DNA of 64,000 nt from a virus: positions 57,268 through 121,267 of the IMG/VR virus record IMGVR_UViG_3300030098_005028, one strand, 5' to 3'. Below, piece after piece: positions 3,834 to 46,968 of this stretch. A program made the position numbers and the translations under genes. Position 1 is the stretch's first letter; each line of letters begins with the position of its first letter. Under the pieces are notes generated by a model that was not told the origin of the DNA, ran no database searches, and saw only the letters and a list, made by a program, of their open reading frames with translations.

Positions 3834-3865
3834 TTTATGTAAAACCTAATTTTTATCTTAATATG

Positions 3866-4651: not shown

Positions 4652-4675
4652 AGGATAATCCCTTACTTGATAGCA

Positions 4676-5506: not shown

Positions 5507-6422
5507 TAAACCACTCTATTGTGTCTTCCAGTCCTTCAGACAGTGAGGTCTCTGCCTCGAATCCAAATTCCTTAGCTCTACTAGTATCTAAACATCTTCT
5601 AGGCTGGCCATCTGGTTTGGATGTATCCCAGACAATCTCACCAGTGTAACCCATTTTTTCAGATATAAGGGCAACTAAATCTCTTATAGTTATCTCTTTT
5701 CCTGTACCAATATTAACAGGCTGTGGATCATTGTGTTGTTCCATAGCAGCAACTATAGCTTCCGCACAGTCTTCAACAAACAAAAACTCTCTACTTGCAG
5801 ATCCACTTCCCCATACAACAACTTCTTTTTTGTTGCTCTTTATGGCTTCGTCAAACTTTAAAATTAAAGCAGGAATAACATGACTAATTGCTGGATCAAA
5901 GTTATCATTTGGCCCATACATATTTACTGGTATTAAGTTTACTCCATTAAAACCATATTGTTCTTTGTAGGAAATTATCATTTGCATCAATGCTTTTTTT
6001 GCTATTCCATAAGGAGCATTTGTTTCCTCTGGATAACCATTCCATATTTCTTCTTCTTTAAACGGCACAGGAGTAAACTTTGGATAAGCACAGACCGTTC
6101 CAATCATCACGAATTTTTTTAGATCATAATGCCTTGCTGTTTCGATAACATTCATTCCCATAGCCAAGTTGTCATGAATGAATTTTCCGGGATTTTCTTT
6201 ATTTGCCCCAATCCCTCCGACCTTAGCTGCTAGATGAAGTACAACTTTTGGATTAAACATATCAAAAACTCCCGCACACAAGACTGGATCAGTCAAATCA
6301 TAGACAGAACCTACGGGAAATATTTTTTTGTATCCTTTAAACTTGAGTTCTTGAAGAACTGACTTTCCTAAAAATCCAGTTGCTCCAGTTAGCAAGATGC
6401 TATCGTCTTTATTTATTTCCAT
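5481..6422 (-). CDS. fcl: GDP-L-fucose synthase (NAD-dependent epimerase/reductase)
   Basis: The 313-residue protein is a full-length short-chain dehydrogenase/epimerase with the features of GDP-4-keto-6-deoxymannose 3,5-epimerase/4-reductase. It shows ILLTGATGFLG for NADP binding, HLAAKVGGIGAN, GTVCAYPK with the catalytic serine position replaced by C (the usual text is S-S-C-Y-P), the YGIAKK YxxxK pair, and NMYGPNDNFD. The last step to GDP-L-fucose is therefore phage-encoded. No GDP-mannose dehydratase (Gmd) is seen in this window; it could lie outside or come from the host. A stand-alone ManC-type cupin at 60.7 kb and a fucosyltransferase-like gene at 43.5 kb fit the same route. Confidence 0.88.
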   Translation of the reverse strand: MEINKDDSILLTGATGFLGKSVLQELKFKGYKKIFPVGSVYDLTDPVLCAGVFDMFNPKVVLHLAAKVGGIGANKENPGKFIHDNLAMGMNVIETARHYDLKKFVMIGTVCAYPKFTPVPFKEEEIWNGYPEETNAPYGIAKKALMQMIISYKEQYGFNGVNLIPVNMYGPNDNFDPAISHVIPALILKFDEAIKSNKKEVVVWGSGSASREFLFVEDCAEAIVAAMEQHNDPQPVNIGTGKEITIRDLVALISEKMGYTGEIVWDTSKPDGQPRRCLDTSRAKEFGFEAETSLSEGLEDTIEWFNDNRNNLF

Positions 6423-7437
6423 TTAAAATCTCCAAACATTTTTCCGCTTCTTCTTTGTATTGTAAGTGACGTAGCAGACTATTTATCCTGTGGCAATATG
6501 TATGTTCTTTCATGACAGTCTCATAACAAGCCTCTGCATGAGACTTTCTTAAATTAGGACTATCAATAAAATATTCTATCATCTTGATAAATTCATTTTC
6601 GTCTCTTGCGACTGGCATCTCATTCTTTGTGAATACATCTTCTACAAGAGAGTCTATATGATCGGAGATACAAAAAGACTTGCAAGCAGAAATTTTGAAA
6701 ACTCTTTCATTAACTTCAAATCCAAACTTATTTGCGTGAGGCTCGCTTACATTTGGGCATATCTTAGAAGAACAGAATAATTTTCTTACGGTGTCATCAT
6801 CTGTTACACCGCAATATTGTGGTATTCCCCATCCAGTACCAAATACTTTCATTCTATATTTACCAACCGGATTAGTAAGTGGGAATAGATACTTAGATAA
6901 ATTTTGACCTTTATAAGACCAGTAGCCACCAACAAATGAAATATCACACTCAAGTTTTTCATCAGGATAGTCTGGGTAGTACACAAAGTGATCTGCTGCT
7001 GGCTGCATAGGAATAACATTTATTCCACTATCAATCCAAGAAAGCATAGTGTCATGTATTCTTTTAGGATGATAAAAATTGAACAGGGAGAGCCTGTCGC
7101 CTATTAGTTGAGAAAGCTTGTAAGCACTTTCTTTTTCTTTCTGATCAGCAATACCAATTGGGTATTTTTTAATATCTATTATGTCGTCGTAAGGCCCCCA
7201 ATTATTTGCTTTCAATACTGCCTTAGTATTATTTATAGCTAAACATTTCGCTGTAGCCCTATCTAAATCATAGGTCGTACCTATAAAAATATCTGGCTTA
7301 AACTCATCGAAACAATCAAAGATAGGCTTTGTACCATCCCACCATGCCCAGTCCCATCCAATAGACGTAAATACATTCTTCCACCCAGAAATAATGTGGT
7401 GTAAAGCAGATGGAAATGTTTTAGACAATACTCTCAT
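6409..7437 (-). CDS. CgeB-like glycosyltransferase (GT-B fold)
   Basis: The 342-residue protein ends with a segment typical of the CgeB/Glyco_trans_1_2 group: KICPNVSEPHAN, GFEVNERVFKISACKSFCISD, then a capping helix. Its central CDISFVGGYWSYKG starts the C-terminal Rossmann domain, as in GT-B retaining enzymes. It is inferred to transfer a sugar from a nucleotide donor. It overlaps the nucleotidyltransferase gene upstream by four bases and GDP-fucose synthase downstream by 14. Confidence 0.74.
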   Translation of the reverse strand: MRVLSKTFPSALHHIISGWKNVFTSIGWDWAWWDGTKPIFDCFDEFKPDIFIGTTYDLDRATAKCLAINNTKAVLKANNWGPYDDIIDIKKYPIGIADQKEKESAYKLSQLIGDRLSLFNFYHPKRIHDTMLSWIDSGINVIPMQPAADHFVYYPDYPDEKLECDISFVGGYWSYKGQNLSKYLFPLTNPVGKYRMKVFGTGWGIPQYCGVTDDDTVRKLFCSSKICPNVSEPHANKFGFEVNERVFKISACKSFCISDHIDSLVEDVFTKNEMPVARDENEFIKMIEYFIDSPNLRKSHAEACYETVMKEHTYCHRINSLLRHLQYKEEAEKCLEILNGNK

Positions 7438-8180
7438 ATTAACTTTATATTCATATTTAGTGTCTGTAAGTCTTTAGGAGAATCTATTTCAAAAATTCTC
7501 ATACCATTGGGTTCAGATCCAGCAAACCTTCCCCCTTCTTCTATTACTTTATTTATTGCTTCGTATCCAAACCATTTTTCATGATTGTCTTGTATAGTTA
7601 TATCTTCTAGATATGTCAATTCCCTGCCATGAAGATATGCTATCTGACACCATTTGTGTTTTAATCCAAAGGACAGGTTCGTCACCACGTTGTCATCAGA
7701 CAAGAGAAGCCCAACCTCCTCATCTTTAAAAAAACCTTTTGTATCGACGACTAACTTTGATACTCCATCGTGAATACCTTTGATAGCTTTGTAATTAAAG
7801 ACTAAGTCTCCATACATCAACAACACATTTTTTCTGTTGCAAACTTGTAAGCCAATGCCAATGCTTCGGCATACATTGTTATTTTCATAATCAAAGTTGT
7901 ATACAAGTTTTACCGGATATCTTCTTCTTATCTTTTCTCTTACTAGGTTTGCACCAAATCCCACTACGACAATTATTTCACTTTGAGGATAATATTTATG
8001 TATTAGCTTTATTTGTCTCTCAATTATTGAGCTATCTTTAATATGTATCAAAGACTTTGGCCCATGAGACTTCATCCTTCTTCCTATTCCAGCAGCAGGT
8101 ATAACGACAGACAGATCTTCTCCCTTTTGATCTACCTGTTGCTCTTTTGCTTTGACTACATTTCTAGACGCTGCTGACAT
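7434..8180 (-). CDS. Sugar/alcohol-phosphate nucleotidyltransferase
   Basis: The 248-residue protein has the NTP_transferase signature LSVVIPAAGIGRRMKSHGPK starting near residue 23. A second strand, EIIVVVGFG, and NVLLMYGDLVF place the metal-binding aspartate. The family activates sugar phosphates or choline phosphate with NTPs. The spacing resembles GlmU, RfbA or LicC-type enzymes rather than CMP-sialate synthase, whose PARxxSKxxxxKN motif is absent. The first 20 residues are a charged extension. It probably supplies a donor to the surrounding glycosyltransferases. Confidence 0.78.
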   Translation of the reverse strand: MSAASRNVVKAKEQQVDQKGEDLSVVIPAAGIGRRMKSHGPKSLIHIKDSSIIERQIKLIHKYYPQSEIIVVVGFGANLVREKIRRRYPVKLVYNFDYENNNVCRSIGIGLQVCNRKNVLLMYGDLVFNYKAIKGIHDGVSKLVVDTKGFFKDEEVGLLLSDDNVVTNLSFGLKHKWCQIAYLHGRELTYLEDITIQDNHEKWFGYEAINKVIEEGGRFAGSEPNGMRIFEIDSPKDLQTLNMNIKLI

Positions 8181-8192
8181 TACGATTCCGCA

Positions 8193-8939
8193 TTAAGTTG
8201 ATTGAGAGGATTCCTTTTGCAATCTAATTCTATCCCTTATCTTTTCCCAGTTTTTGTGCCATATTTCTGAAGGCACTGTATCTGATGCATTGAATCCTGT
8301 TACAGAATATGTTGACAACGGAACAGGTATATGTATAGCAACAAATTTACTTGTAATTCTTAGCCACAAGTCCCAGTCTTCGGCTGTCCTCATAGACTCA
8401 TCATAAAGACCAACTTGATCTAATGCCTTTTTATTTATAAGAGGAGTATTGGAGATGATGCACTCCTTCTCTATTTCCTCTCTACTGTATGGTCTTCTTA
8501 GTTCGAGCATCTGCGTATTATTCTCTATGTTTTGAATTAATACATCAGCATATACAAGACCTATGTTAGAAATGTCTTCTTTAATTATTTCTACAGACAT
8601 ACTAATCTTATTTGGAAGATAAGTGTCATCTGCATCCAGCATGCAAAAGAAGTCAGTTTCATTCCAAAATTTTTGTATTGCTACATTCCTTGCGGCAGAT
8701 GGGCCTGTAGGAAATGTATTGTATATAGCGTCTATACCTATCTCTTCAGACATTGATTCTATTTTTTGTTTAGAACCATCAGTAGATCCATCATCTACTA
8801 CGACAACACGTTTATTTCCATAGTCTTGATCTAGAACACTTTGAACTGCACGCTCAACATACATTTCGTGATTGTGACATGGAATTACAACTGTTACGCT
8901 TGGAGTACTTGTTCCAGATTTCTTACCAAGTGTTTGCAT
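8193..8939 (-). CDS. Glycosyltransferase family 2
   Basis: The 248-residue protein is a classical GT2 domain. VTVVIPCHNHEMYVERAVQS opens the fold, VVVVDDGSTDGS holds the nucleotide-binding aspartates, and FCMLDADDTYLP supplies the DxD. A later MRTAEDWDLWLRI matches the ED/W catalytic-base block of the family. The C-terminus is short, without membrane segments. It overlaps the upstream Cys-rich protein by 46 bases. Confidence 0.88.
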   Translation of the reverse strand: MQTLGKKSGTSTPSVTVVIPCHNHEMYVERAVQSVLDQDYGNKRVVVVDDGSTDGSKQKIESMSEEIGIDAIYNTFPTGPSAARNVAIQKFWNETDFFCMLDADDTYLPNKISMSVEIIKEDISNIGLVYADVLIQNIENNTQMLELRRPYSREEIEKECIISNTPLINKKALDQVGLYDESMRTAEDWDLWLRITSKFVAIHIPVPLSTYSVTGFNASDTVPSEIWHKNWEKIRDRIRLQKESSQST

Positions 8940-9781
8940 CCTTGACTCTCCGAAATTCTCTTTATTTTGTCAATAAATAATTCTTCTCTTTCCTCTTCCG
9001 TGTCCAAATTTCCACCAGTCATTTTGTAGGCTTTCGTCTGGTACACGTCTCCATTTCCCTCATCTCCTTCTATGGCTAATATCTGTTCAAGATCATCAAC
9101 TATCGCTGTGTTTATTTTTGAGTAGAAATCTTTTATTGGTATATGTCCAGCATCAAATACGCTTATATAACCAAAGAAATTAGCATTAACCTTATTAGCG
9201 GCAATATTAACGCAAAGTCCTCTTGTTAGTGATTTATCATTTATATGTTCGATTGAAAAACTTATGTTAAATCTATTACAAAGTCTTTTTAATCCTATTG
9301 GCTGTATAGAAGAATTGTTGTTGATAAATGTTACATGTTTAGGTTGAAGGTCTTGTTCTAATACAGATATCAATGTTTCTTCAACATCTTCCATATCATT
9401 ACTTTCGCTGATATAAATTATGCATTTGAATTTTATTTTTGACTCTCTTCTTACTGCGAAGACTGGGTCTTTATGTACGTTGGCCCAGTCCTCGTTTCTC
9501 CAAAAAACACAATATCTGTCACGAATGACAAAGAACTCATTTCCTTGGTCATCATAGCAGTCATCAACAACGACACCCTTATCTTTGAACTTTTGTATTC
9601 TTCCTAACTCACAAGAAGTTTGTGTGTTTTCCTCATAAACTGCGAAAATGCAATTTCTGCACACCGTCTCTGGCGTTTCGGCTTCAGGTGAGAGATGAGA
9701 TTCTTGCTTTAATGTTTTGTCTAAGAAAGCATCGGGCGGCTCTGCAAATTCATTGGAAAGACGATCATTATCTTCTGACAT
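8894..9781 (-). CDS. Cys-rich N-terminal domain fused to degenerate GT2-like domain
   Basis: The 295-residue protein has a probable metal-binding N-terminal module, with CRNCIF near residue 41 and further cysteines in TSCELG, DDCYDD and RYCVFW. A GT-A-like half follows: FKCIIYISESNDMEDVEETL, then HVTFINNNSSI. The usual DxD block is not obvious; FFGYISVFDAGHI is the nearest candidate. It may be an inactive or specialised glycosyltransferase, or a scaffold for the cassette. It is flanked by a GT2 and a methyltransferase-like fragment. Confidence 0.55.
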   Translation of the reverse strand: MSEDNDRLSNEFAEPPDAFLDKTLKQESHLSPEAETPETVCRNCIFAVYEENTQTSCELGRIQKFKDKGVVVDDCYDDQGNEFFVIRDRYCVFWRNEDWANVHKDPVFAVRRESKIKFKCIIYISESNDMEDVEETLISVLEQDLQPKHVTFINNNSSIQPIGLKRLCNRFNISFSIEHINDKSLTRGLCVNIAANKVNANFFGYISVFDAGHIPIKDFYSKINTAIVDDLEQILAIEGDEGNGDVYQTKAYKMTGGNLDTEEEREELFIDKIKRISESQGCKHLVRNLEQVLQA

Positions 9782-10242
9782 TATGGTCTTTGTCCCTCTA
9801 CTAATAACTTATGTTCAAAAGTCTGTTTTTTAATTATCTTTAACCCATGTGTTGACTCTAGATAATGAGCTAAACTAATTACAGTGATAGCGTTTTTTCT
9901 GATAAACGGTTCTTCTTCACCATATAGCATAGAATTTATGTCTGCTATACTAATGTCGTGTTCATAAAAAGACTTGCATATAGAATGTGAGTCAGCAGCA
10001 CCAATAATTATTTTTCCACCATGTCTAAGTTTGCTGACCCAATGGTCTATTATACCTAACACTTCATTTTTACAGAAAAAATTTATAACATCTAATGCTA
10101 ATATTTCAGAAGCTTCTGCGTCGTCAATGAATTCTGTCAAGTCTGTCATGTTTCCATGATGACAACCTTCAGAAGCACCTAAATGGTTTACATTCAAATA
10201 TCCACTGAGTGGTGCGCCTCCATATAATAAGTTAACCTTCAT
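9781..10242 (-). CDS. Truncated methyltransferase-like protein
   Basis: The 153-residue protein corresponds to the second half of a small class I methyltransferase fold. LALDVINFFCKNEV and WVSKLRHGGKIIIGA fit the motif IV strand and the post-IV loop seen in glycan-cluster methyltransferases. A glycine-rich motif I is not visible; the N-terminus MKVNLLYGGAPLSGYLNV takes its place, as in some predicted SAM-dependent methyltransferases of polysaccharide loci. Activity is doubtful. Its stop and the next start meet in a tight overlap. Confidence 0.5.
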   Translation of the reverse strand: MKVNLLYGGAPLSGYLNVNHLGASEGCHHGNMTDLTEFIDDAEASEILALDVINFFCKNEVLGIIDHWVSKLRHGGKIIIGAADSHSICKSFYEHDISIADINSMLYGEEEPFIRKNAITVISLAHYLESTHGLKIIKKQTFEHKLLVEGQRP

Positions 10243-11257
10243 CTGATGCTTCCTCGAATAGTATATTCCAATTTGTTAAAAATTTGTCTAAAGAAAATCT
10301 TTCTTCTATTGTTTTTCTCGCCGCTTCACCCATTTTTTTTGCTAAAGAATCATTTAAAAGAAGTTCTTGTGTGTACTGACGAAGATCCATTGGGTCATTA
10401 GACAGAAATCCATTCACTCCATGTTCTATAATTTCTGGAATCATACAATTATTTGTAGAGACTATAGCACATCCGCAAGACATCGCCTCTAACATAGATG
10501 TAGGTATTGGTGATGCTGTAGACGTATTTAGATAAACTCTTGAGTTATCGTAAACAGAAGCCAGTTCTTTAGTATCAGTAGCAGGTTTTGATATTCCGGG
10601 ATTGTCACCAATAACTTTGACGGGAACGACTTGATTATGAGGAAAGCCAGTAGCGGTTCTCCATAGCGTAAACCCACAGCACCAGTCTCTGTTAGCCCAA
10701 TCATTAACAACTGACAGGGCAACCTTTTCCCTGTCTAATATATCTGTAGAGCATTTAAAAACATCCATATCAATTCCATGATGGATAACATGATATGGGT
10801 TTTCCCACTCCCATGCTTGCCTATTGTATTCTGAAATATACACATTGTAGTCAGCAATCATCTTTTTGCTCTCTGTCAATGCATCTTGATGCAAGGGGTT
10901 TGCTGTAGTCGTAGTGGTATGTTCTATATTGATAAGAGAACAGCCTATCTGTCTGGCTAGATCTTGTCCTACCCAAAATTGTCCATACTTATTCTGACTA
11001 AGGACAAGGTCTATATCTATGTACGAAGGAACTTCTATATTATCTGGATTAGAATATATGATATGGTAGTTGCTTGGAATTTCCGCATACTGTTCATTCC
11101 AGTTTCCTTTTGTAAAGTCTTTTATTGCGAGAGAATAGAAGTTATGGCCTGTCTTACATAAGTTGCTTTCATATCTCTCATGAGTAGGAAAAGTTATTAT
11201 GTTTAGAGGTTCGCCTTTTTCTCTAGTCGCTTTTCTAAGTAATGTTCTTAATAGCAT
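10232..11257 (-). CDS. Glycosyltransferase family 4-like
   Basis: The 341-residue protein has a GT-B C-terminal half with PTSMLEAMSCGCAIVSTNNC and EIIEHGVNGFLSNDP. This is the ExxAxGxP(V/I)xxxxxxG.(P/E) donor-binding block of GT4 enzymes. The N-terminal domain has a HTTTTTANPL segment near the active cleft. It overlaps a second GT4 gene upstream by 23 bases, and three consecutive GT4 genes form a tandem set from 10.2 to 14.0 kb. Confidence 0.82.
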   Translation of the reverse strand: MLLRTLLRKATREKGEPLNIITFPTHERYESNLCKTGHNFYSLAIKDFTKGNWNEQYAEIPSNYHIIYSNPDNIEVPSYIDIDLVLSQNKYGQFWVGQDLARQIGCSLINIEHTTTTTANPLHQDALTESKKMIADYNVYISEYNRQAWEWENPYHVIHHGIDMDVFKCSTDILDREKVALSVVNDWANRDWCCGFTLWRTATGFPHNQVVPVKVIGDNPGISKPATDTKELASVYDNSRVYLNTSTASPIPTSMLEAMSCGCAIVSTNNCMIPEIIEHGVNGFLSNDPMDLRQYTQELLLNDSLAKKMGEAARKTIEERFSLDKFLTNWNILFEEASDEG

Positions 11258-12362
11258 CTTTCATTTCTTTCCCAACATTGCTCAACGAAAAATCATAAGC
11301 CCTATTAATTCCAGAATCAGACTTGCTTTTCCTTTTTTCATGATCTTTGTATGCTTCTCTCATGCATCTCATCAAGTCAAGAACATCAATGTTCCACCAG
11401 TTCTCTCTGGCAGAAAACATTGAAGGAAGAGAGCTATTACTCATTCCAAAAACAGGTTCTTGATTATTCTTGACAAGCCATCCATTACTGTCGTCGATAA
11501 ATTCAGTCATCCCGCCTACATTATTAACGATAGGTGTATTTCCCATAGCCATTGCATCAAAAGCAGGCATGCACCATCCTTCACCAAAAGACGGCATTAC
11601 AAAACAGTCACATGTCTGATGAACAACCATCATCATTTCCTGACTAAGATTTTGACAGAGAATGAGTTCTTGCTTATAGTCATTTTTGTTTTTATATATT
11701 TTAAGTTCTGTTTTAACTGTGTCACACATTTCCTGTACTTTTTGCGAGCATTCAGCGTCTGACATTCCCGAAAGATTCGCCTTTATTAACAGGTGTACAT
11801 TTTCAGAAGGAGCAAACTCTAAATGAAAAGCCTTGAGCAAAGCTACTAGATTTTTTCTTCGTGTTACTTCACCAACAAAGTAGAAAACAAAATTGTCTTT
11901 TAGTTCTGGTAACTGTTGATATAAGTTGTCATATTCTTTTTCATAAACAGAAGTGTCTACTGGAACATGAAACTTTCTAATTGGAATATTAACTCCACTG
12001 GATTCAGAAACTTTTCTTGATTGAAAGTTTGCTACCCAAGCTTCATCTAAGAGATTTATCTTTTCTACCCATCCAGATCTTTTTATGCTACTAGTCTCAG
12101 TAAAATACAATCCGACGTTCTTCAACTTGCCGTGATATTCCATCTGGTAAGGAAGTATATTTTGAATTACTAATTCACATCCACTGATATCTTTCTTCTC
12201 AAGCTCAAGTATTCTTTCTGGAACATCTGCTTGGTTGTTATTCAGTTTTATATGTCTAGGAACAACATCAACATTTGCAGCATCCAAAGCTAGTATGTAA
12301 TTTTGGGCTGCGTTTCCCCACCCTGTTCCGTCTCTATAGACTCCAACAAATAAAGTTTTCAT
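11235..12362 (-). CDS. Glycosyltransferase family 4
   Basis: The 375-residue protein has FYFVGEVTRRKNLVALLKAF, the start of the C-terminal nucleotide-binding domain with the usual R/K-K-N pair. MPSFGEGWCMPAFDAMAMGN followed by GGMTEFI is the canonical EGxGxPxxEAMAxG donor site. The N-terminal KTLFVGVYRDGTGWGNAAQN has the glycine-rich acceptor loop. Retaining sugar transfer in the cytosol is the expected role; sugars are unknown. Confidence 0.87.
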   Translation of the reverse strand: MKTLFVGVYRDGTGWGNAAQNYILALDAANVDVVPRHIKLNNNQADVPERILELEKKDISGCELVIQNILPYQMEYHGKLKNVGLYFTETSSIKRSGWVEKINLLDEAWVANFQSRKVSESSGVNIPIRKFHVPVDTSVYEKEYDNLYQQLPELKDNFVFYFVGEVTRRKNLVALLKAFHLEFAPSENVHLLIKANLSGMSDAECSQKVQEMCDTVKTELKIYKNKNDYKQELILCQNLSQEMMMVVHQTCDCFVMPSFGEGWCMPAFDAMAMGNTPIVNNVGGMTEFIDDSNGWLVKNNQEPVFGMSNSSLPSMFSARENWWNIDVLDLMRCMREAYKDHEKRKSKSDSGINRAYDFSLSNVGKEMKDAIKNIT

Positions 12363-14047
12363 TTTGGATCAGCGGCCTTTATAAATTCTGGAACATAATC
12401 ACTAGGATTTGTTCTGATATGCTCCCAATAGTTATTTACTTCACACATTTCTTGGCAGAATTCAATCACCTCTTTAGATGTATAAGGAACTTGCGACCTT
12501 CTTCTCTCAGCAAATGCCGAAGATTCATCTAAATTGTATGCACCATTGATTGGAGAAACAGAGAATCCTATGTTGAGGTCTCTAAGCATCCTTTGACATA
12601 GATAGCTATCTTTCTTACCTACGTCTCCCCATATATTGCATATGCACCATTCAACAAAGTCTTTCTTAGACAAGTTAGTAGGAATTTCTTGCTGTGGATT
12701 ATGTGTTCTTGCAGGAGAGTCCCAAGTCTGGTCATGAGGAACTATCTCTACAGTATCAAAGTGGTCTTCCCATTTTTTTGCTGTTTTGTCCCAGTCGTAT
12801 CTATCTGTTGCGCATTTGTAAGTATTCTTGGAAATACTATCTCTTTCTTCTTTACTTTTTGAAAGTAGAGAATACAACTTTGTAATGAAATCTTCTTCTA
12901 TTGGGTATGCTCTGTATGTGTGGGTCTCATATTCTCTGAACATAGTGCAGTCGATAGGCACGCCTCCTACATTTCTTACCACAGATGACATTGCAGAATA
13001 ATCAACAGACATAACTGGCACGCCACAAAAAGCAGCTTCAACTTGTGGCATACCAAAGCCTTCACATATGCTGTACTGAACATAGACATCAAAACAGTTA
13101 ATAATGTTTGCTAACTGCGAAGATGATATTCCTCCTTGAGTAGAAGGCATAAAAGCTGAAATATTACCCGTTGGAGGACAGACGGTTCTTCCTCCTTTAA
13201 AGAATGAAGGGAATGTATACTCACAATCTTTACAGTCGTAAGTCACAAGCACTTTACTACCAACTCCTGATTCCCTTATTAATCTAGGAATGTCCCATCC
13301 TAAGTCTGGATAGGTTGTGTGCATGTAAAGATAAGTCTTCTCTCCAATCTCAGGGTATCGTTTCACAAACTCTGCAAATGCCTGAAGAAGCTCTGGGTAT
13401 AGTTTTCTTTTTTGATTCCTCATGACGGTTCCAATGATGAAAATATCATCTTCAAAACCCATTTCTTTACGAAATTTTTTCCTATCTTGTGGCGGCTTAA
13501 ATATTTTTCTATCTGCCGCTGGAGAGCATATGTCTAATACCTCAATTAGGCCATTGGTCTCTTCCTCTAAAACTTCTTTTCCATATTCAGAATATGTGAA
13601 CACGGCATCAGCATCCATATAGGTAGCAAGCCATTCTTCTTGGTTTGGCGCTGAGTCTATAGTAGGCATAATTACCCAATGATAAAAAGGTCTAAAAGGA
13701 GACCTTTGCTCAAACTCCATCATCCACCAGTCACGAATATCGCAAACTATGTCTGGCTTAAAGTTCAGACAGACATCTTCAAACCTCCAAGCCCCAAATT
13801 GATTCAATGCATTAGACATGTACTGTTGGTGTGCGACAGTATCATTTTCATGAGGAGCATTCCCATAAAACTTCCAAGGAATACCTGCTCTTCTTTTGTC
13901 GTCATAAGTTGAATAACAGGCGAACTCAGCAAGTTCGTATTTTCCAGTAGCATACAGTCTGGACATAACCTCCTTCGTATAGATGGAGTATCCAGTATGC
14001 ATGAAAGATGCTTCTGTACAAAAAAGAATTCTAGGTTTTCTATTCAT
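12359..14047 (-). CDS. Glycosyltransferase family 4, extended C-terminus
   Basis: The 562-residue protein is a GT4 enzyme with a long tail. RILFCTEASFMHTGYSIYTK forms the N-terminal glycine/serine loop, IIGTVMRNQKRKLYPELLQA starts the second domain, and SICEGFGMPQVEAAFCGVPV is the donor-binding block. About 120 residues beyond the GT core (from roughly 440) have no recognised family. I take the ATG at 14047, which begins MNRKPRILF and overlaps the SSB-like stop by eight bases; an upstream TTG would add nine residues inside that gene. Confidence 0.84.
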   Translation of the reverse strand: MNRKPRILFCTEASFMHTGYSIYTKEVMSRLYATGKYELAEFACYSTYDDKRRAGIPWKFYGNAPHENDTVAHQQYMSNALNQFGAWRFEDVCLNFKPDIVCDIRDWWMMEFEQRSPFRPFYHWVIMPTIDSAPNQEEWLATYMDADAVFTYSEYGKEVLEEETNGLIEVLDICSPAADRKIFKPPQDRKKFRKEMGFEDDIFIIGTVMRNQKRKLYPELLQAFAEFVKRYPEIGEKTYLYMHTTYPDLGWDIPRLIRESGVGSKVLVTYDCKDCEYTFPSFFKGGRTVCPPTGNISAFMPSTQGGISSSQLANIINCFDVYVQYSICEGFGMPQVEAAFCGVPVMSVDYSAMSSVVRNVGGVPIDCTMFREYETHTYRAYPIEEDFITKLYSLLSKSKEERDSISKNTYKCATDRYDWDKTAKKWEDHFDTVEIVPHDQTWDSPARTHNPQQEIPTNLSKKDFVEWCICNIWGDVGKKDSYLCQRMLRDLNIGFSVSPINGAYNLDESSAFAERRRSQVPYTSKEVIEFCQEMCEVNNYWEHIRTNPSDYVPEFIKAADPK

Positions 14048-14449: not shown

Positions 14450-16033
14450 CTAGATTTGCGTAACCTCTTTTACAACAAGGCCGTTTCTTTTCTTGTCTCT
14501 CTCGCCTTGAATTAAAACCGTATTTCCTTCTTGCAGTAGGCCTTGATATTCAGACCATTCTTCAGGAAAGCATACTACACTGTCAACAACGCATGAACCA
14601 TCAGAAATAGACATAAATGCCATCTTAGATCCGGGATTCTTGCCGTTTTTTGTGGTTATCTCATTTGATCTAACAATTTCTACGCCCATAACAATGTAAC
14701 CAGACTTGCCATCCAAAAATTCTTTGCAGGTAGTATTAGACTCTACAGATTTTTCGCAAGCATCAACCTTGTTGCAAGTAATAGATATTCCGAGATGCTT
14801 CTTTTCATTCCAAGCAATCTGTCCTGCGCTATCATCAAGACTATGTGGAGGATTGTCTAAAACTTTAATCAAGTCATTCAGAACATCTACACGCTTGTAA
14901 TTGCTACATCCCCCACCCTGCTTCTTTGGAAAGGCACATGCACCAAGAGCATCTTTCAGAGTGTCCCATTTTTCTCCCTGCATCCATTCTCTTTCCTTGT
15001 CCGTCAACTTACCCCAAATCTCAATCTCATAAAGCATTCTGTTTCTTGACACACCAAAACAATCCATAGCACCAGAGCAAATCATTGCCTGATTTGCCAT
15101 AGAGTTTATTTTTTTTGAGTGATGAATTAAGAATGTTATCCAATCCAAATTTTCTAAGTTATCTACAGATGAGAAATTTTCTATTATCTTTTCAACGGCT
15201 GATTCGCCTACGCCTTTTATGTCAGATAAACCAAAATATATATGGTTGTCTTTTATGTAAAATGTTTTCTTCTGATGTTTGATGTTAGGTGTTCTAACTT
15301 CTATTTCGCTTATTTTTGCATCAGATACAAGTTCATATATTTCTTCATGACTATTTTGCTTCCAAGCAGAACCTATAAGGTATGAACAAAAGAATTCGAC
15401 AGGAAAATGTGCTTTGCAGTATGCAGACCAATAGGCATTTTTTGCATAACTAACAGCATGAGACTTGTTGAAAGAATATCTTTGAGATTCTCTAATCCAG
15501 CCGAATATTTCCTTTGCTTCTTCTTTAGATACTAATCCTTTGCTATCGCATCCCTTTAGAAATTGCCCTTCTACTTTGGACATAACATCGGCTTTTTTCT
15601 TTCCAATCGCTTTCCTTAAAACATCTGCCTCTTGAAGGCTGAACCCTGCTAAAGATTGTGCTATCTGCATGGCCTGTTCTTGATATACCAAAACGCCATA
15701 GGTTTTATTCAATATTGGTTCTAACGACTCATGAAAATACTCTATGCTCTCAAGACCAGCTTTACGATCAACATAACGCTGAGTCATGCTTTTAGGTGGA
15801 TTTCCACTTACTGCCCTGAGACATCCCGGTCTAATAAGGCTTACGAGTGCCGCTAAATCTTCAATGCTGTTTGGCTTTAACCTTTTTGACCATTCTTTTC
15901 CAAGCTGGCTTTCTAGCTGAAAGACACCTTTTGTTGCGCCTTCATGAAAAAGCTTCCAAGTAGCAGGGCATTCCAAATTTATCTTATAGAAGTCAATAGT
16001 GCCTTCTAAAACACAACCGCAATCAAAATTAAT
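14450..16033 (-). CDS. dnaE: DNA polymerase III alpha subunit, C-terminal half (fingers to OB domain)
   Basis: The 527-residue protein contains the part of DnaE that follows the palm. TKGVFQLESQLG, PGCLRAVSGNPP, LVYQEQAMQIAQ, VLRKAIGKKKADVMSKVE and RYSFNKSHAVSYA are all diagnostic. A helix-hairpin-helix block (DIKGVGESAVEKI) and an OB domain (AFMSISDGSCVVDS) follow. It ends after the OB fold, so the tau-binding tail is missing. The three catalytic aspartates lie in the other gene; neither piece can work alone. The ATG at 16033 overlaps the exonuclease stop by five bases, which gives translational coupling. Confidence 0.9.
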   Translation of the reverse strand: MNFDCGCVLEGTIDFYKINLECPATWKLFHEGATKGVFQLESQLGKEWSKRLKPNSIEDLAALVSLIRPGCLRAVSGNPPKSMTQRYVDRKAGLESIEYFHESLEPILNKTYGVLVYQEQAMQIAQSLAGFSLQEADVLRKAIGKKKADVMSKVEGQFLKGCDSKGLVSKEEAKEIFGWIRESQRYSFNKSHAVSYAKNAYWSAYCKAHFPVEFFCSYLIGSAWKQNSHEEIYELVSDAKISEIEVRTPNIKHQKKTFYIKDNHIYFGLSDIKGVGESAVEKIIENFSSVDNLENLDWITFLIHHSKKINSMANQAMICSGAMDCFGVSRNRMLYEIEIWGKLTDKEREWMQGEKWDTLKDALGACAFPKKQGGGCSNYKRVDVLNDLIKVLDNPPHSLDDSAGQIAWNEKKHLGISITCNKVDACEKSVESNTTCKEFLDGKSGYIVMGVEIVRSNEITTKNGKNPGSKMAFMSISDGSCVVDSVVCFPEEWSEYQGLLQEGNTVLIQGERDKKRNGLVVKEVTQI

Positions 16034-16706
16034 CATCTGAAAAAGAGCCTTCCATTTTAAGACGAGCTTCTTTTCCATCACTACCAGTCAAGTTTCTCTG
16101 CATTTGAAGAAGCCTGATGATTATTCTTGCTGTATTCATTACGTCTTGTAATGCGTCATGTGCATTCTCAATATCTGCTTTTGCAAATCCCAGCCACTCA
16201 CAAACTGAAGTTAACTTCAATGATTTAAGATTCGGATTGTTTTCAGTCCAAAACCACATATGGTGCATAAGATCAAATTTGTGTATAGGATTAAATAATT
16301 TTTGTTGTCCTCTGTTATCATTATACGGGCCGTATTTTTTGCAGTATCTATCTACAATTATCATGTCGTATCCAAGAATATTATATCCAGCAGGAATAGG
16401 TGCCATATAAGTACCTATATTTCCTTTAGATTTGTTATGCTTGTTTACCCAGTCTACAAATTGGCCCCATACAATTTTTATATCTGGCGCTTGCTCAAGC
16501 TGTTCTAATGTAAAGCCCGTAACCTCCAATGCTCCTTGTTCTACCCTATCTAAATTTTCTGGTCTCGCCATAGATTCAAATGTGTCTATTATTTTCAGAT
16601 CCCACCTATTGATAATGCAAGCTCCGATTTGTGTTATTTCACATTCGTTAGGGTTTGCGCCTCCCGTTTCAAAGTCAAAGACGCAAATTTGGTTATAGGT
16701 TCCCAT
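16029..16706 (-). CDS. DnaQ-like 3'-5' exonuclease (DEDDh)
   Basis: The 225-residue protein has Exo I VFDFETGG with the first D/E pair, ExoII LGYDMIIVDRYCKK, and Exo III NAHDALQDV with the H-x4-D of the DEDDh group. This is the proofreading epsilon family of Pol III. It lies between and overlaps both halves of Pol III alpha (14 and 5 bases), so it is most likely the replicative proofreader produced in equal amount with them. No clamp-binding motif was recognised. Confidence 0.88.
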   Translation of the reverse strand: MGTYNQICVFDFETGGANPNECEITQIGACIINRWDLKIIDTFESMARPENLDRVEQGALEVTGFTLEQLEQAPDIKIVWGQFVDWVNKHNKSKGNIGTYMAPIPAGYNILGYDMIIVDRYCKKYGPYNDNRGQQKLFNPIHKFDLMHHMWFWTENNPNLKSLKLTSVCEWLGFAKADIENAHDALQDVMNTARIIIRLLQMQRNLTGSDGKEARLKMEGSFSDD

Positions 16707-18648
16707 TATATTTCTCCAATATCATATTTTGAACGCCATGAACCTTATCTAGTAAAGCAATACCAAGTATGTCAAACTTTACATGACCCATAGCCTCTAA
16801 GTCGTTCATTTCCATTCCGGCAATATTTTGTCCTGTTCTCTTATCGTATAAGATGGGACATATCTCATTTAATGGCTCTTGTGCTATTACAATTCCGGCT
16901 GCATGTTTAGACTGAGATCTATTTGTGCCTTCAAGCCTAATTGCTTGCTCGAATCTTTTTGCCATACTTCCTTGCAATTTTCCGTTTGCATCTTTATAAC
17001 ACCAATTCTCAAGTTCTTTAGAATTATTTTCTAATGCCCATCTTATGATACTAGCCTCTCCATCTTCTCTCATCTCTTCTAGCTGATCTGATATTTCTGC
17101 TTCATCTGGAATCCATTTGGTTATTCGATTCATTTCTTCAAAACCACATGCTGAGTGAACACGAAGAACATCTTTAAGAACACTTCTGCCTTGCATTCTT
17201 GTGTAAGTTAATATTTGAGCTACTCTGTCAGAGCCAAATCTATCTTTGATGTATTGTATTGTGTCGTCTCTTTTTTGAATTTCAAAATCCATGTCAACAT
17301 CAGGCAAACTAACACGGTCTTTTGTATTTCTTCCGGCGTTATAGAACCTCTCAAAATAGAGATCGTACTCTATTGGATCTACATCAGTAACTCCTAGTAG
17401 ATAAAGAACAAGACTACCAGCAGCAGATCCTCTTCCTGCACCAACTATTTCTCCTCTGTCTCTTGCTGCATTAATGATGTCATGAACAATAAGAAAATAG
17501 TCATTTAAATCAGCACCTGTAAGAACTTCTAATTCTTTCTTAAACCTATCGCCATATTGTTTTTTTCTTTTCTTGTACTGTTCTTCAGTGATATATCCGC
17601 ATCGCTTTATAGAATCTTCGATCTGTTCTTCTCTTTTCTTCCATCCATCACGACACAGCTTTGTAAGATAATCTTCCGATGTCATACCATCGGGACAAGG
17701 GAATTTGGGCAACCTTGGTTTTCCAGTGATATCATATTCTTCACACATGTCAGCTATGACGCACGTGTTGTTTATCTCCTCGTCAGTGTGTATCTCTTTC
17801 ATTTCTTCAAGGCTAGGTATGTGGTAGTTAGATGACTTAAAAAATATTGATAATGCAAAGTCCTTGTCTCCCCTCATCTTATTATCTACATCTTGAAGCG
17901 TTGTCTCTAACTTATTGCATAAAAGAACACGTTGGTCATATGCGTCTTCACGTCTAGCATAATGTGCGTCTGGAGTTGCCACAGGAGGTATTCCAGTTTT
18001 TTTGCTAACGTACCTCAACGCCTCTGCTACTACTTTAGCTGCTGGAAAAGAATTTTGATCAATAAGCTGAATCTCAATAAAAAAGTTTTCTTCTCCAAAA
18101 ATGTTTTGATATTTGGTTGCAAGACTGCAAGACAACTCATACCAGTTGTCTCTGACTAAAGACTTTGCTTCTTCGTATGTTGAGCAATTGTAAGCTTGAT
18201 ATGGGTCAGAGAAGATGATGTTGGCTAAGTCACTTCCTGCGTGTCCACTAAAGGCTATAAGATTGCCATCAGCAAAATTAGACAATCTTTCTAAATCAAG
18301 TCTGGGTTTATAATGAAAATTTTCTGGCTTATTGGACTCAGAAGTTGCCTGTAGTAATCTTTTCCATCCTATTTCATTTTTAGCCAAAACAACTAGATGG
18401 GTAAGTTTTTCTCTAGGTGGCTTTTCAGATATGTCTTTAGATAGATAAAATTCGCAACCAAGTATGGCTTTCTTTCCTTTTGACTTCATTGCATTGATGA
18501 AAGATACGGCACCTCCAACATTTCCATGATCTGTTAGTGCAGAACCTTCAAGACCAAGTTCTTCACACCTTTTTGCAATGTCTTTTGGCTTACTAAGTCC
18601 ATCTAAAAGCGAATAATGACTATGTACATGAAGAGGAAAAAACCTCAT
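16693..18648 (-). CDS. dnaE: DNA polymerase III alpha subunit, N-terminal half (PHP and palm)
   Basis: The 651-residue protein opens with the PHP domain (HVHSHYSLLDG, ALTDHGNVGG). It continues into the C-family polymerase core: GAGRGSAAGSLVLYLLGV, then SLPDVDMDFE near residue 450 with two catalytic aspartates, TYTRMQGRSVLKDVLRV, and VKFDILGIALLDKVHG near 624 with the third aspartate. It stops about 15 residues later, where intact DnaE proteins continue into the FQLES block. No intein motifs are seen at the end. ATGA couples it to the small gene upstream. Confidence 0.92.
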   Translation of the reverse strand: MRFFPLHVHSHYSLLDGLSKPKDIAKRCEELGLEGSALTDHGNVGGAVSFINAMKSKGKKAILGCEFYLSKDISEKPPREKLTHLVVLAKNEIGWKRLLQATSESNKPENFHYKPRLDLERLSNFADGNLIAFSGHAGSDLANIIFSDPYQAYNCSTYEEAKSLVRDNWYELSCSLATKYQNIFGEENFFIEIQLIDQNSFPAAKVVAEALRYVSKKTGIPPVATPDAHYARREDAYDQRVLLCNKLETTLQDVDNKMRGDKDFALSIFFKSSNYHIPSLEEMKEIHTDEEINNTCVIADMCEEYDITGKPRLPKFPCPDGMTSEDYLTKLCRDGWKKREEQIEDSIKRCGYITEEQYKKRKKQYGDRFKKELEVLTGADLNDYFLIVHDIINAARDRGEIVGAGRGSAAGSLVLYLLGVTDVDPIEYDLYFERFYNAGRNTKDRVSLPDVDMDFEIQKRDDTIQYIKDRFGSDRVAQILTYTRMQGRSVLKDVLRVHSACGFEEMNRITKWIPDEAEISDQLEEMREDGEASIIRWALENNSKELENWCYKDANGKLQGSMAKRFEQAIRLEGTNRSQSKHAAGIVIAQEPLNEICPILYDKRTGQNIAGMEMNDLEAMGHVKFDILGIALLDKVHGVQNMILEKYNGNL

Positions 18649-33324: not shown

Positions 33325-33498
33325 CTATTCAGTGATTCTCAAACTGTCACCTACGATCCAAGCTACACCTAATGCAACAATGCTGTTGGCTGTATTTTCT
33401 GGAAGCCCAATAAGATCTTGCAAACAAACTACAGCGACACCGCCTACGGCAGTCCAAAATCGTCTAGAATTGATAAGTGATTTGAATTTTTCTTTCAT
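33325..33498 (-). CDS. 57-residue membrane protein
   Basis: A complete short gene with its own promoter, GGAG Shine-Dalgarno (eight-base spacing) and downstream terminator. The protein has a basic N-terminus (KEKFKSLINSRRF) and two hydrophobic stretches (WTAVGGVAVVCLQDLIGL, then ANSIVALGVAWIVG). The shape is that of small phage membrane proteins, including some holins, but no diagnostic feature proves lysis. Confidence 0.72.
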   Translation of the reverse strand: MKEKFKSLINSRRFWTAVGGVAVVCLQDLIGLPENTANSIVALGVAWIVGDSLRITE

Positions 33499-44533: not shown

Positions 44534-45260
44534 TGTATCGCCTTTGGGGTAGGTTAATTAGGTACTCTTCCAACCTATTTATTACCGTCCTCATTGGCGT
44601 AAAATATTTTCTACACCGTCTGACCATTTCCGTTCTTTCAGACCTATGTGTTGGTCTTCTATGAATAGCGTGCTTGTCAGGCAGTCTTTTTAACTTGATA
44701 GGAATTTGCAAGTTTCTTTGTCCGAATACACTCATAGCACAGTATGAGATGAATATGTCCTCATGAAAATTATTTGTCATTGTTTTGATTTCATATTTGC
44801 TATAGAAGTCAAACTCACATGACAAAACATATGGTATCAATGATCTAGGAACACACGCAGCAGACGTTATAACAACTTCTACTGCTCCTTTTGCGTTGAT
44901 ATAGTTATATCCTCCGTCTGCGTCTGGTACTCTTCCAGAGGCACAATAAATTCTTTCTGGGTCAGACTTAAAAAATCTCCAAAAAGTATCAAAGCCTTCT
45001 TCTTCAATGATTACATCGTCATCCTGATATACTAGACATTCATTGGTAGCCAAAACTGCGTTTGCCCACCGAGTTCTAAGACCTAAATCTAAATTTGTAT
45101 TTATTATTTTTACTTTTTCATTCTTTATGTAATCAAAATAAACATCAGGATTATTATTAAAGACTATAATCTCATCAACAAGCTCATAATCTTTTTGTTT
45201 ATTTAATATCCTGAGTACGTTTTCAGGTCTCTTCCATCCATTGATTAGTACACTAATCAT
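44508..45260 (-). CDS. Glycosyltransferase, GT64/exostosin-C-like
   Basis: The 250-residue protein begins MISVLINGWKRPENVLRILN. EIIVFNNNP and CLVYQDDDVIIEEEGFDTFW follow, with the D-D-D motif of GT64 transferases, and HEDIFISYCAMSVFG is a catalytic-base-like block. GT64 in animals builds heparan sulphate or GPI glycans. Phage members are uncharacterised to my knowledge. The ATG at 45260 overlaps the upstream stop by eight bases. Confidence 0.72.
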   Translation of the reverse strand: MISVLINGWKRPENVLRILNKQKDYELVDEIIVFNNNPDVYFDYIKNEKVKIINTNLDLGLRTRWANAVLATNECLVYQDDDVIIEEEGFDTFWRFFKSDPERIYCASGRVPDADGGYNYINAKGAVEVVITSAACVPRSLIPYVLSCEFDFYSKYEIKTMTNNFHEDIFISYCAMSVFGQRNLQIPIKLKRLPDKHAIHRRPTHRSERTEMVRRCRKYFTPMRTVINRLEEYLINLPQRRYNGQSRKTE

Positions 45261-45606
45261 CTGCGCTTTCAATAAGCTCCTGTATTTCCTCGTCCGACAA
45301 TTTGTATGCCGTCTTTAATATAGAAGACAGGATATTATCGGTCAAATCTTTGTCATTTCCAACCTCGTCGGAAATTTTTTTTCTAAGAAGAGAAACTTGT
45401 ATTTTTGTTGGTTTTCTAAACTTCTCAGAAATAATCCTAAAAGATTCGCTGCAATCTTTAATCATCTTGATAGATTCTAGAACAACACCAGCAACAATCA
45501 AAGCTAAGGCAGGATCTACATTTATAACAGATTCTCTACCATCAGTTTGTTTATAGTATTCTTGACAGACAAGTTCTGAAAACTTTACATAATTCATCTT
45601 GTTCAT
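45253..45606 (-). CDS. Hypothetical protein
   Basis: The 117-residue protein is helical with one moderately hydrophobic segment (VDPALALIVAGVVLESIKMI) and an acidic C-terminus. I take the ATG at 45606, just after the Cys-rich protein's stop; the frame opens further upstream within that gene. No family recognised. Confidence 0.65.
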   Translation of the reverse strand: MNKMNYVKFSELVCQEYYKQTDGRESVINVDPALALIVAGVVLESIKMIKDCSESFRIISEKFRKPTKIQVSLLRKKISDEVGNDKDLTDNILSSILKTAYKLSDEEIQELIESADD

Positions 45607-45616
45607 CAGACTTAAA

Positions 45617-45817
45617 CTAACAGCACCCACATTCACATGGACAATCTTGGCAATCAAGACAGGCTTGTTTAATTGCTACATCATCGCCCATGACGCTGTT
45701 TACCTTTTCCACTACTTTAGGATTTTGAGAAGCTATAACCATGCCAAGTAGGATACCTACAGCAAAAGGAATAACTTTCATTATGCTTTTCTTTTTTGAT
45801 TTATTTTCTTCTGACAT
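45617..45817 (-). CDS. Small membrane protein with Cys-rich C-terminus
   Basis: The 66-residue protein has one transmembrane segment (MKVIPFAVGILLGMVIAS) and ends in CLDCQDCPCECGCC, eight cysteines within fourteen residues. The tail could bind metal or form disulphides if it faces the periplasm. A GGAG Shine-Dalgarno precedes the ATG at 45817. It follows a string of membrane genes, so an envelope role is inferred. Confidence 0.68.
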   Translation of the reverse strand: MSEENKSKKKSIMKVIPFAVGILLGMVIASQNPKVVEKVNSVMGDDVAIKQACLDCQDCPCECGCC

Positions 45818-45818
45818 T

Positions 45819-46115
45819 TTATTTCTCCGCAATAAGATTTATAGTTTTTAGTTTTGTTTGATCGTCAGGAACAATCTCTACTCCCATTTTTTCAAGAGTG
45901 TTCAGGGTCTTCAAGTTAACTTGTAGTAATATACTGTCTCTAATCACACTTTGTGCTGTAAATTTTCTCACCTCATCCATAAACATTTTTTGCTCAATAT
46001 CTATAGAATTATTTTCTACTTTAGGTGGTGTTGTTTTCTTTTTAAAAGTGTTAATAGAGTTTATTAATAAATTAACGGCAAGTAGTATCACTATTGCCCT
46101 CAAATAAGCATTCAT
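45819..46115 (-). CDS. Single-pass membrane protein
   Basis: The 98-residue protein starts MNAYLRAIVILLAVNLLINS, a transmembrane segment, and continues as a soluble alpha-helical domain (MDEVRKFTAQSVIRDSILLQ). N-in orientation with a periplasmic domain is likely. The ATG at 46115 avoids overlap with the upstream gene. Lysis accessory or envelope protein is possible. Confidence 0.65.
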   Translation of the reverse strand: MNAYLRAIVILLAVNLLINSINTFKKKTTPPKVENNSIDIEQKMFMDEVRKFTAQSVIRDSILLQVNLKTLNTLEKMGVEIVPDDQTKLKTINLIAEK

Positions 46116-46125
46116 GGTTACACCA

Positions 46126-46380
46126 TTAGAAAAACAGCTTATATACCAAACCAACTACTCCAGCAGCAATAGAAAGCCATTTTAGTACAGAAGCTAAGGC
46201 CAATAACAAATCTTTCAAAGGTCTAGGTTTGTCCTGTTTCCACTGCCTCTTATCTTCGATCTTTTCGTCACGGTCTTTCTCTCTCTGGTCTTTTTTCTCT
46301 TCTCTCTCTTGTTTTCTTAATTGTGACTTTGTTTTGTTTTCTTCAACAATTTCAACTATCCGGTTCATTTTTTTCACCAT
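46126..46380 (-). CDS. Charged coiled-coil protein with C-terminal membrane segment
   Basis: The 84-residue protein is dominated by KREQ-rich helix (KSQLRKQEREEKKDQREKDR) and ends with a hydrophobic stretch, DLLLALASVLKWLSIAAGVV, then LVYKLFF. A tail-anchored coiled coil is likely. The start could be 46380 or 46368. It follows the metalloprotease gene and overlaps it by up to 29 bases. Confidence 0.6.
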   Translation of the reverse strand: MVKKMNRIVEIVEENKTKSQLRKQEREEKKDQREKDRDEKIEDKRQWKQDKPRPLKDLLLALASVLKWLSIAAGVVGLVYKLFF

Positions 46381-46939
46381 ATAAGGATTGTATTCTAGGT
46401 ATGTCATCATCTTTCTGTGGCTCTTTAATCATTGGATTATAGTGAGGAGCCATCAAAGCCTTTGGTACTTCAGAATGTGTTAGCCCAAGTATATGTCCTA
46501 TTTCGTGAGTAGCAACATTAAGAAGTAATATCCCTTTGTTTGAAAGAGAAGATGACCAAATTTCATCAGTGTCAAATCTCATAAGTAGTTGACCAGTAAA
46601 GTTATCTTTAGGTGGCAAAAAAGCCCAAGCTAAAGTACCCATCGGGCCATCAAAATGATATTCTTGTCCTTTTCCAATATCTATAATAACATTTGCAGAC
46701 TCATCTTCAATTTGTTCAAAAGACAAGTTTGTTACGTTTTCCCAAGATTGGAAAGCCTTCTTTATAATCTCATCCCACTTTTGTGGTTCAAGATCATCAT
46801 CCCTGTTTCGTATGTAGTATTTTATGTGATCTATTCCCCATTTGTTCAGACTACCGTCTGCTCGTATAAAACTGGGACAACCACATCTAGGAACACCAAA
46901 AGAATCAATATAAGAAATAGCCAACTGTGTATTCATTGC
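46352..46939 (-). CDS. Matrixin (M10A matrix-metalloproteinase-type) protease with PRCG switch
   Basis: The 195-residue protein aligns along its length with the catalytic domain of matrix metalloproteinases. Near the N-terminus GVPRCGCPSF carries a PRCG cysteine-switch. WENVTNLSFEQIEDE, HFDGPMGTLAWAF and FDTDEIW follow. VATHEIGHILGLTHS is the zinc site, ALMAPHY the Met-turn, and DDIPRIQSLYG the final helix. A long propeptide and a signal peptide are absent, so the protein starts almost at the switch. A secreted, virion-borne or lysis-released protease is possible. The start follows GAGGGGG. Confidence 0.88.
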   Translation of the reverse strand, partial: AMNTQLAISYIDSFGVPRCGCPSFIRADGSLNKWGIDHIKYYIRNRDDDLEPQKWDEIIKKAFQSWENVTNLSFEQIEDESANVIIDIGKGQEYHFDGPMGTLAWAFLPPKDNFTGQLLMRFDTDEIWSSSLSNKGILLLNVATHEIGHILGLTHSEVPKALMAPHYNPMIKEPQKDDDIPRIQSLYGEKNEPDS

Positions 46940-46968
46940 ACAAATCCCCCTCAAAAATTGGTGCTAAT

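Follow-up and report, generated by a model that had tools for sequence, protein, structure and literature searches.

The 64-kb window analysed here, i.e., the whole stretch of 64,000 nucleotides that forms part of a 143,058-base IMG/VR record, encodes a 194-residue protein that is almost certainly a genuine protease domain of the M10A type, carried by a phage. Sequence comparisons place this protein within a viral clade of matrix metalloproteinases (MMPs) and make a stray acquisition an unsuitable description of it; in those members of the clade that have lost the propeptide, the cysteine of the activation switch appears to be the part that is mostly retained. The clade consists of cysteine-switch MMPs of tailed phages and comprises long, Tat-like and leaderless forms. 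It is new within the scope of the open-licence papers in PMC, as none of those listed describes phage MMPs with a cysteine switch (subscription papers lie outside that scope). Already known are the MMPs of insect viruses, the metzincins of Listeria prophages and, as annotations in a few phages, remote matrixins.

The gene lies on the minus strand (46352..46936), with its stop at 46352 and an ATG at 46936 that is preceded, at a distance of 10–14 nt, by GGGGG; a TTG at 46954 is a possible alternative start. An earlier note made from the letters of the window had given the span as 46352–46939; the stop is correct, but the start was placed one codon too far. The same note had described an MMP catalytic domain along the whole length of the protein, with a zinc site, a Met-turn and a final helix, and had proposed an M10A profile search, and on these points its reading was borne out. 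Against Pfam-A the protein matched Peptidase_M10 (PF00413) with E=1.3e-38 and 132.9 bits, far over the cut-off of 24, and positions 1–159 of the 159 in the profile are covered by residues 32–187; against PHROGs no family was matched at E<=1. A phmmer search of the PDB retrieved 119 distinct sequences at E<=1e-3, headed by human MMP-9 (1.4e-29, 106 bits) and MMP-13 (3e-29). The catalytic zinc site HEIGHILGLTH occupies residues 144–154 (46475..46507) and the methionine of the Met-turn is Met162 (46451..46453), both read from the sequence. An AlphaFold2 model built on a 42-row alignment had a mean pLDDT of 89.0 and a pTM of 0.87, and Foldseek aligned it with MMP-13 in the PDB (6.2e-17, 41% identity). 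This model contains the active-site helix (residues 138–149), i.e., the zinc-binding element on which the earlier note had made its proposal depend, as well as a C-terminal helix (178–186). The protein therefore shows the features by which an M10A protease is recognised: PF00413 over the whole domain, HExxHxxGxxH with a Met-turn, and the MMP fold. The secretion signal of M10A enzymes was looked for by hydropathy alone, and no strongly hydrophobic stretch was detected near the N-terminus (the maximum over 10 residues is 1.1), in agreement with the absence of a signal peptide stated in the note.

The second prominent feature of this protein is a PRCG cysteine-switch motif at residues 16–19 (46880..46891, minus strand), with Cys18 as the putative switch residue. 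The phmmer alignment with MMP-9 begins at residue 10 and pairs this motif with the PRCG of proMMP-9, which supports the claim that a cysteine-switch motif stands at the very start of the protein. With respect to the full motif, PRCGxP(D), the window protein has PRCGCP at residues 16–21 followed by Ser instead of Asp. Only 15 residues lie ahead of PRCG, where a mammalian-type propeptide would have 70–90, so that, as had been noticed, there is almost no propeptide. Residues 1–13 of the AlphaFold2 model have a pLDDT below 50, and the block means are 56 for residues 11–20 and 65 for residues 21–30; hence, the docking of the switch cannot be read from the model. In a chosen subset of 42 aligned rows Cys18 was present in all 42, whilst Pro16, Arg17 and Gly19 were present in 23, 26 and 26, respectively. 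These chosen rows had suggested an invariant switch cysteine, a view that was abandoned when all 56 distinct viral MMPs were considered: a cysteine aligned with Cys18 is present in 49, another six have a cysteine displaced within about eight residues of the switch place (L087, L043, L086, L073, L056 and L066), and one has no cysteine near it, although some of these pairings may be due to chance, given that the proteins with a displaced cysteine and several others, some of them with an RR leader, hold extra cysteines nearby. The single protein without a cysteine at the switch place, L078 (6951–8297, equivalent to L216 6108–7454), is the second MMP of L216; its zinc site is intact and its gene adjoins a second MMP of the contig.

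The 56 viral MMPs, which are the set left after dropping four truncated loci, occur in three forms: 30 carry an RR leader, assigned by a simple RR rule and hence Tat-like by sequence rule only, 24 are long, and two are leaderless, namely the window protein and, at 55% identity to it, the sister protein of L059/L195. The proteins of this set, like those of a set of 60 mentioned below, are distinct by exact sequence, and near-duplicates and some C-terminally cut copies are included. Alignments indicate that the long phage relatives keep the propeptide; for the long form L199, the alignment of residues 27–266 with human proMMP-1 spans both propeptide and catalytic domain (1.1e-33). His144, Glu145, His148 and His154, together with Met162 of the Met-turn, are present in 56/56, a conservation that is partly due to selection because the loci were found by a zinc-site and Met-turn pattern. 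Asp122 and Glu125, an acidic pair that we take to be of the calcium type, are outside the search pattern and are likewise kept in all 56. On the other hand, none of the 56 proteins (and none of the 42 in the chosen subset) has His at the aligned positions 104 and 120, which presumably correspond to the structural-zinc ligands of MMPs; the His ligands of the structural zinc typical of M10A are thus absent from all 56 viral MMPs, the window protein included.

The members of this clade were collected using a degenerate pattern of the M10A zinc site and Met-turn over viral contigs, which gave 115 stretches, and a profile search over 253 stretches, which confirmed 66 loci. A scan of viral contigs with the single protein returned as its sole match a 100%-identical copy (L002); a second record, IMGVR_UViG_3300030329_004314 (85,902 bases), has this identical protein. 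When sequences were ranked by phmmer against the window protein, the 60 that scored at least 91 bits were all viral, and the top bacterial sequence among the matches listed in the genome scan reached 75 bits; as this figure is the best only among the matches listed, a closer bacterial relative may exist. In genomes sampled by phylum, where each phylum takes its name from seed-locus titles, matches at E<=1e-8 were found in 14 of 294 planctomycete-phylum genomes (best 77 bits), in two of 194 verrucomicrobial-phylum genomes (best 57 bits) and in three of 299 proteobacterial-phylum genomes (best 66 bits). The phylogeny that the earlier note had suggested was computed from 75 rows (57 viral, 16 bacterial and two human) as an unrooted tree, and a branch with 98/98 support sets the viral clade apart from the human and most of the sampled bacterial MMPs: on one side are 52 viral rows with three long-branch planctomycete rows, and on the other the two human, 13 bacterial and five remote viral rows. 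In the same tree the window protein pairs with its sister from L195 (98/76). The two matrixin genes filed under 'Acinetobacter phage MD-2021a' (L124, CAKLQH020000026.1) were set aside, since they lie amid dnaK, grpE and purK and the locus looks like a bacterial chromosome filed as a phage.

That the protease is encoded by a phage, as had been proposed, is well founded, as the record encodes the large subunit of a terminase (phrog_2, 4.3e-23), a ClpP-type protein labelled as head maturation protease (phrog_94, 7.4e-33; Pfam CLP_protease, 9.1e-24; by eye the gene at L003 1963–2598), a tape measure protein (phrog_14917, 1.7e-19), rIIA and RIIB. Genes for a split DNA polymerase III alpha, a RecA-like protein, a primase and a helicase were recognised by eye from the translations. 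The polymerase occupies two ORFs (16693–18648 and 14450–16081, within 14450–18648 of the window, minus strand), and by eye a DnaQ-like exonuclease ORF (16029–16706) is located between them. Glycosyltransferase-like and sugar-nucleotide genes are very numerous for one phage in positions 1–14000 and 36–50 kb of the window, again by eye. A gene for a membrane dipeptidase (peptidase M19) is present at 762–1967 of the record (L003, minus strand; 6.7e-47), and an ORF that adjoins the MMP of a relative (L055 1573–2892) has, by eye, a start like that of this dipeptidase gene. Two neighbouring ORFs of the structural region (L003 19104–19832 and L004 353–1060) share MAHNPMGDGWTDD near their start and are probably paralogues. 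Endolysin families were not recognised in 29 + 47 proteins scanned in batches against PHROGs and Pfam, nor in 10 more, a scan that considered the best 25 of 35 PHROG families in one batch and left out the sugar and replication genes; likewise, searches of the record for Amidase_2, Phage_lysozyme and SLT found none. The record may be incomplete, so this absence carries little weight.

Regarding the host, proteins of the DUF1501 type with RR leaders are encoded near several phage MMPs (L046 6459–7712, L059 8872–10083, L080 426–1664 and L090 4913–6145); the one in L046 was identified by Pfam (4.3e-71) and the other three by clustering with it. The best planctomycete match of the L046 protein had 353 bits and 45% identity (best of 119 genomes) and the best among 114 verrucomicrobial-phylum genomes had 205 bits, the other phyla being represented by one genome each. 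This likeness, which comes from one relative, gives a weak lead toward a host among the Planctomycetota. A spacer search that compared 19.5 kb from the window (143 kb in the whole record) with 392 planctomycete-phylum genomes gave no short near-perfect match; the matches were of 41–457 bases with 63–88% identity, all of them in the regions for ribonucleotide reductase and DNA polymerase.

Another aspect that bears on function is the gene content around the MMP. Directly downstream of it, four small proteins with one hydrophobic segment each are encoded on the same strand (45253–46410). The nearest is a small basic protein with one C-terminal transmembrane segment (cl3, 46126..46410; 1.1e-22 with a family HMM that was built with this very sequence included), whose gene, with the ATG at 46410 taken as its start, overlaps the MMP gene at the 3' end of the latter. 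It is followed by a small protein with one N-terminal transmembrane segment (45819..46154, 98–111 residues depending on the start), defined by hydropathy and clustering, that had no match in Pfam or PHROGs and no relative among the loci compared. Next are a small protein with one transmembrane segment and a Cys-rich tail (cl15, 45617..45832) and, recognised by clustering, a small protein with a hydrophobic segment and a DP...C motif (cl42, 45253..45657). Within 3.5 kb of the 56 distinct viral MMPs, cl3 is found beside 13, cl15 beside seven, and cl42 beside nine that include all three forms; cl42 never occurs solely farther off, and its weakest members have E values of 1e-4 to 9e-4. A holin-like protein of 57 residues (cl11, 33325..33498, minus strand; family HMM 1.3e-24) is 12.9 kb away from the MMP in the window, 17 bp to 2 kb in several relatives and 5–6 kb in others; the relative of cl11 in L053 matches PHROG holin families weakly (0.0019 and 0.018). 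Taken together, at least one of the four small membrane-protein clusters cl3, cl7, cl11 and cl15 is located within 3.5 kb of 16 of the 56 MMPs (14 of the 30 with an RR leader, both leaderless ones and none of the 24 long ones), a count that is descriptive, as it was in the surroundings of MMP genes that these clusters were first delimited and as the loci are short; many of the 40 MMPs that have none of the four within this distance are in short loci. The models of these four clusters had zero matches in 87 bacterial loci. In the sister contig L059/L195 a leaderless MMP, cl3, cl7 and an RR-leader MMP follow one another in a row. Small membrane proteins thus adjoin the MMP, and the holin match that would point to a lysis cassette is weak and comes from a relative. 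In other relatives, trypsin-like proteases with apparent signal peptides are encoded near the MMP (L198 7118–7918, L200 1862–2551, L216 5182–5886 and L104 1702–4089), forming clusters of exported proteases in phages.

The candidate late promoter that had been assigned to the MMP gene found no support. The sequence TATTATATATTA occurs once upstream of the gene and nowhere else in the 64-kb window. A sigma-70-like match (9/12) just upstream of the gene, at 46998–46971, cannot be counted as evidence of late transcription, since there are 16 such matches in 3 kb against a mean of 10.0 (sd 3.2) in shuffled sequence. The motif TGTATATA[AT] was found upstream of the MMP in four of the nine relative loci scanned (expected 0.05–0.6 per locus); in the window it has four copies versus 1.95 expected, none of them upstream of the MMP.

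With regard to the role of the protease, degradation of the host surface or matrix, virion maturation and lysis had all been suggested. The separate ClpP-type protein described above, which PHROGs labels as head maturation protease, speaks against virion maturation, and lysis or surface degradation seems the better supported proposal on account of the adjoining small membrane proteins and the precedent of the Listeria prophage metzincins. The mechanism that we tentatively prefer, with somewhat less than even confidence in it as a whole, is that of a latent cytosolic protease that lysis sets free and that becomes active once it is out of the cytoplasm; our confidence was slightly higher before the cysteine had been checked over all 56 proteins, with 49 aligned. 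According to this proposal, the MMP would fold and accumulate in the host cytoplasm, where Cys18 would cap the catalytic zinc and keep the enzyme silent. Late in infection it would leave through lesions made by the holin-like phage membrane proteins, or at lysis; once outside the reducing cytoplasm, the cysteine would be oxidised or displaced, or the short prosegment clipped, and the active protease would cut proteins of the host envelope and so aid the exit of the progeny. The relatives with an RR leader would reach the same place by Tat, and the fact that Tat exports folded proteins would explain why these forms keep the cysteine. Retention of the cysteine speaks for latency: as long as a protease stays folded in the cytoplasm, awaiting lysis in the leaderless forms or Tat export in the RR forms, it has to be kept silent. 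Against the proposal stand the relative that lacks a cysteine near the switch place (L078), the 12.9 kb between the MMP and the nearest holin-like gene, the weakness of the holin match, the low-confidence prosegment of the model and the 40 viral MMPs with none of the four membrane-protein clusters within 3.5 kb; in its favour, though weakly, is that no endolysin was recognised among the proteins scanned.

Several other roles have to be weighed against this one. In two large phage contigs, L206 (6076–8654) and L211 (6090–8744), the long MMP is immediately preceded by the gene for a baseplate wedge protein (Baseplate_J 1.4e-9 in L206; phrog_6 1.7e-19 and 8.3e-14) and has no apparent signal peptide, as would be expected if the protease were carried in or on the tail of the virion and cut host surface proteins at entry; for this branch, entry rather than exit is indicated. 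As an account of the window protein this is nevertheless unlikely: its gene is approximately 60 kb away from the structural genes and on the other strand, amid apparent sugar genes (by eye), and the RR leaders of 30 of the 56 viral MMPs would be useless for a virion protein. Moreover, the tail module at L206 rests on one recognised gene, the other ORFs near the MMP having no PHROG match. Somewhat less probable still is that the enzyme works inside the host cytoplasm on host or phage proteins, for takeover or turnover, with the cysteine as a regulator. The lack of a signal peptide and the same-strand neighbours, which resemble sugar genes more than a lysis or tail module, would suit such a role; against it, one would expect latency under reducing conditions from the switch motif and export from the RR leaders of the relatives, and head maturation would be served by a separate ClpP-type protein.

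The exported trypsin-like proteases beside the MMP in four relatives indicate that protease export recurs in these phages, and they would fit with an enzyme that is freed at lysis as a public good and degrades matrix or biofilm protein around the host, aiding the spread of the progeny; the benefit, however, would be shared with competitors, and we regard this as improbable. Finally, the existence of related enzymes in bacteria and eukaryotes could be taken to mean that the gene is a passenger picked up from a cellular host, without any function for the phage. This is very hard to reconcile with a clade that extends across many phages with a conserved active site, with the gap between the all-viral top 60 and the 75 bits of the best bacterial match among those listed, and with the retention in 56/56 of Asp122 and Glu125, and its probability is minimal. 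The latent protease freed at lysis remains our preferred, if tentative, reading for the leaderless form.

A broader and more speculative extension, which we consider unlikely as it stands, is that tailed phages, perhaps of Planctomycetota-like hosts, possess their own MMP family in which the cysteine switch is a compartment sensor, with three delivery routes that open protein-rich envelopes. If so, the enzyme would be off in the reducing cytoplasm and on outside it, as a protein-cutting counterpart of the endolysin, and the routes would be the leaderless form with small membrane proteins, Tat export and the baseplate operon. 

In textbooks, cysteine-switch MMPs figure as enzymes of animal tissues. 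A clade of them in tailed phages would mean that phages, on their way into or out of the cell, attack protein as well as peptidoglycan. The phage clade, with one branch that has the full proMMP architecture and another that is pared to a near-bare switch, would offer natural minimal zymogens for the study of the switch; it also bears on the unsettled origin of MMPs outside animals.

As mentioned above, the closest structural counterparts of the window protein are the vertebrate MMPs (MMP-1, -9 and -13), with which it shares the full catalytic domain, PRCG, HExxHxxGxxH and the Met-turn, with 39–43% identity to the MMP-13 entries in the Foldseek alignments shown. It differs from them in that it has no signal peptide, no propeptide of 70–90 residues and no further domain, and in that neither it nor any other of the 56 viral MMPs has His at the positions that presumably align with the structural-zinc histidines. 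Among viral proteins, the best matches in BFVD are the MMP folds encoded by insect DNA viruses (granuloviruses, ascoviruses, entomopoxviruses and iridescent viruses), which account for all of the top 18 with 21–35% identity (28% for the top match) and lengths of 193–789 residues. These are, however, viruses of eukaryotes, and the phage proteins in BFVD gave weaker matches than they did. M10-like metalloproteases have been annotated in the tailed phages Lactobacillus phage 3-521 and Maribacter phage Colly_1, but both are very distant from the window protein (tblastn 1e-3 over 25% of the query and Foldseek 7e-7 for 3-521; Foldseek 2e-3 for Colly_1).

Short prosegments are also found in bacterial enzymes. 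Karilysin from Tannerella forsythia is a bacterial MMP that is kept latent by a prosegment of 14 residues (PMC6949598), and in the shortness of its prosegment it resembles the window protein; nevertheless, karilysin uses an aspartate switch whereas the window protein has a Cys in PRCG instead, and it is the latter that has no signal peptide. The same source describes prosegments of 34 residues in mirolysin and 37 in promyroilysin, with a cysteine switch that is proven in mirolysin (PMC6949598); these enzymes belong to the pappalysin and astacin families, not to M10A, and mirolysin is secreted. As for phages, the metzincin Mtz of Listeria is often encoded downstream of the holin and lysin in prophages (PMC8235301), and the word "cysteine" is absent from the main text of that report. 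Both Mtz and the window protein are phage-linked metzincins, Mtz having a Sec signal peptide, and the same report states that Mtz with its TIMP-like partner Tim boosts phage lysis and that proteolytic activity is required for this effect (PMC8235301).
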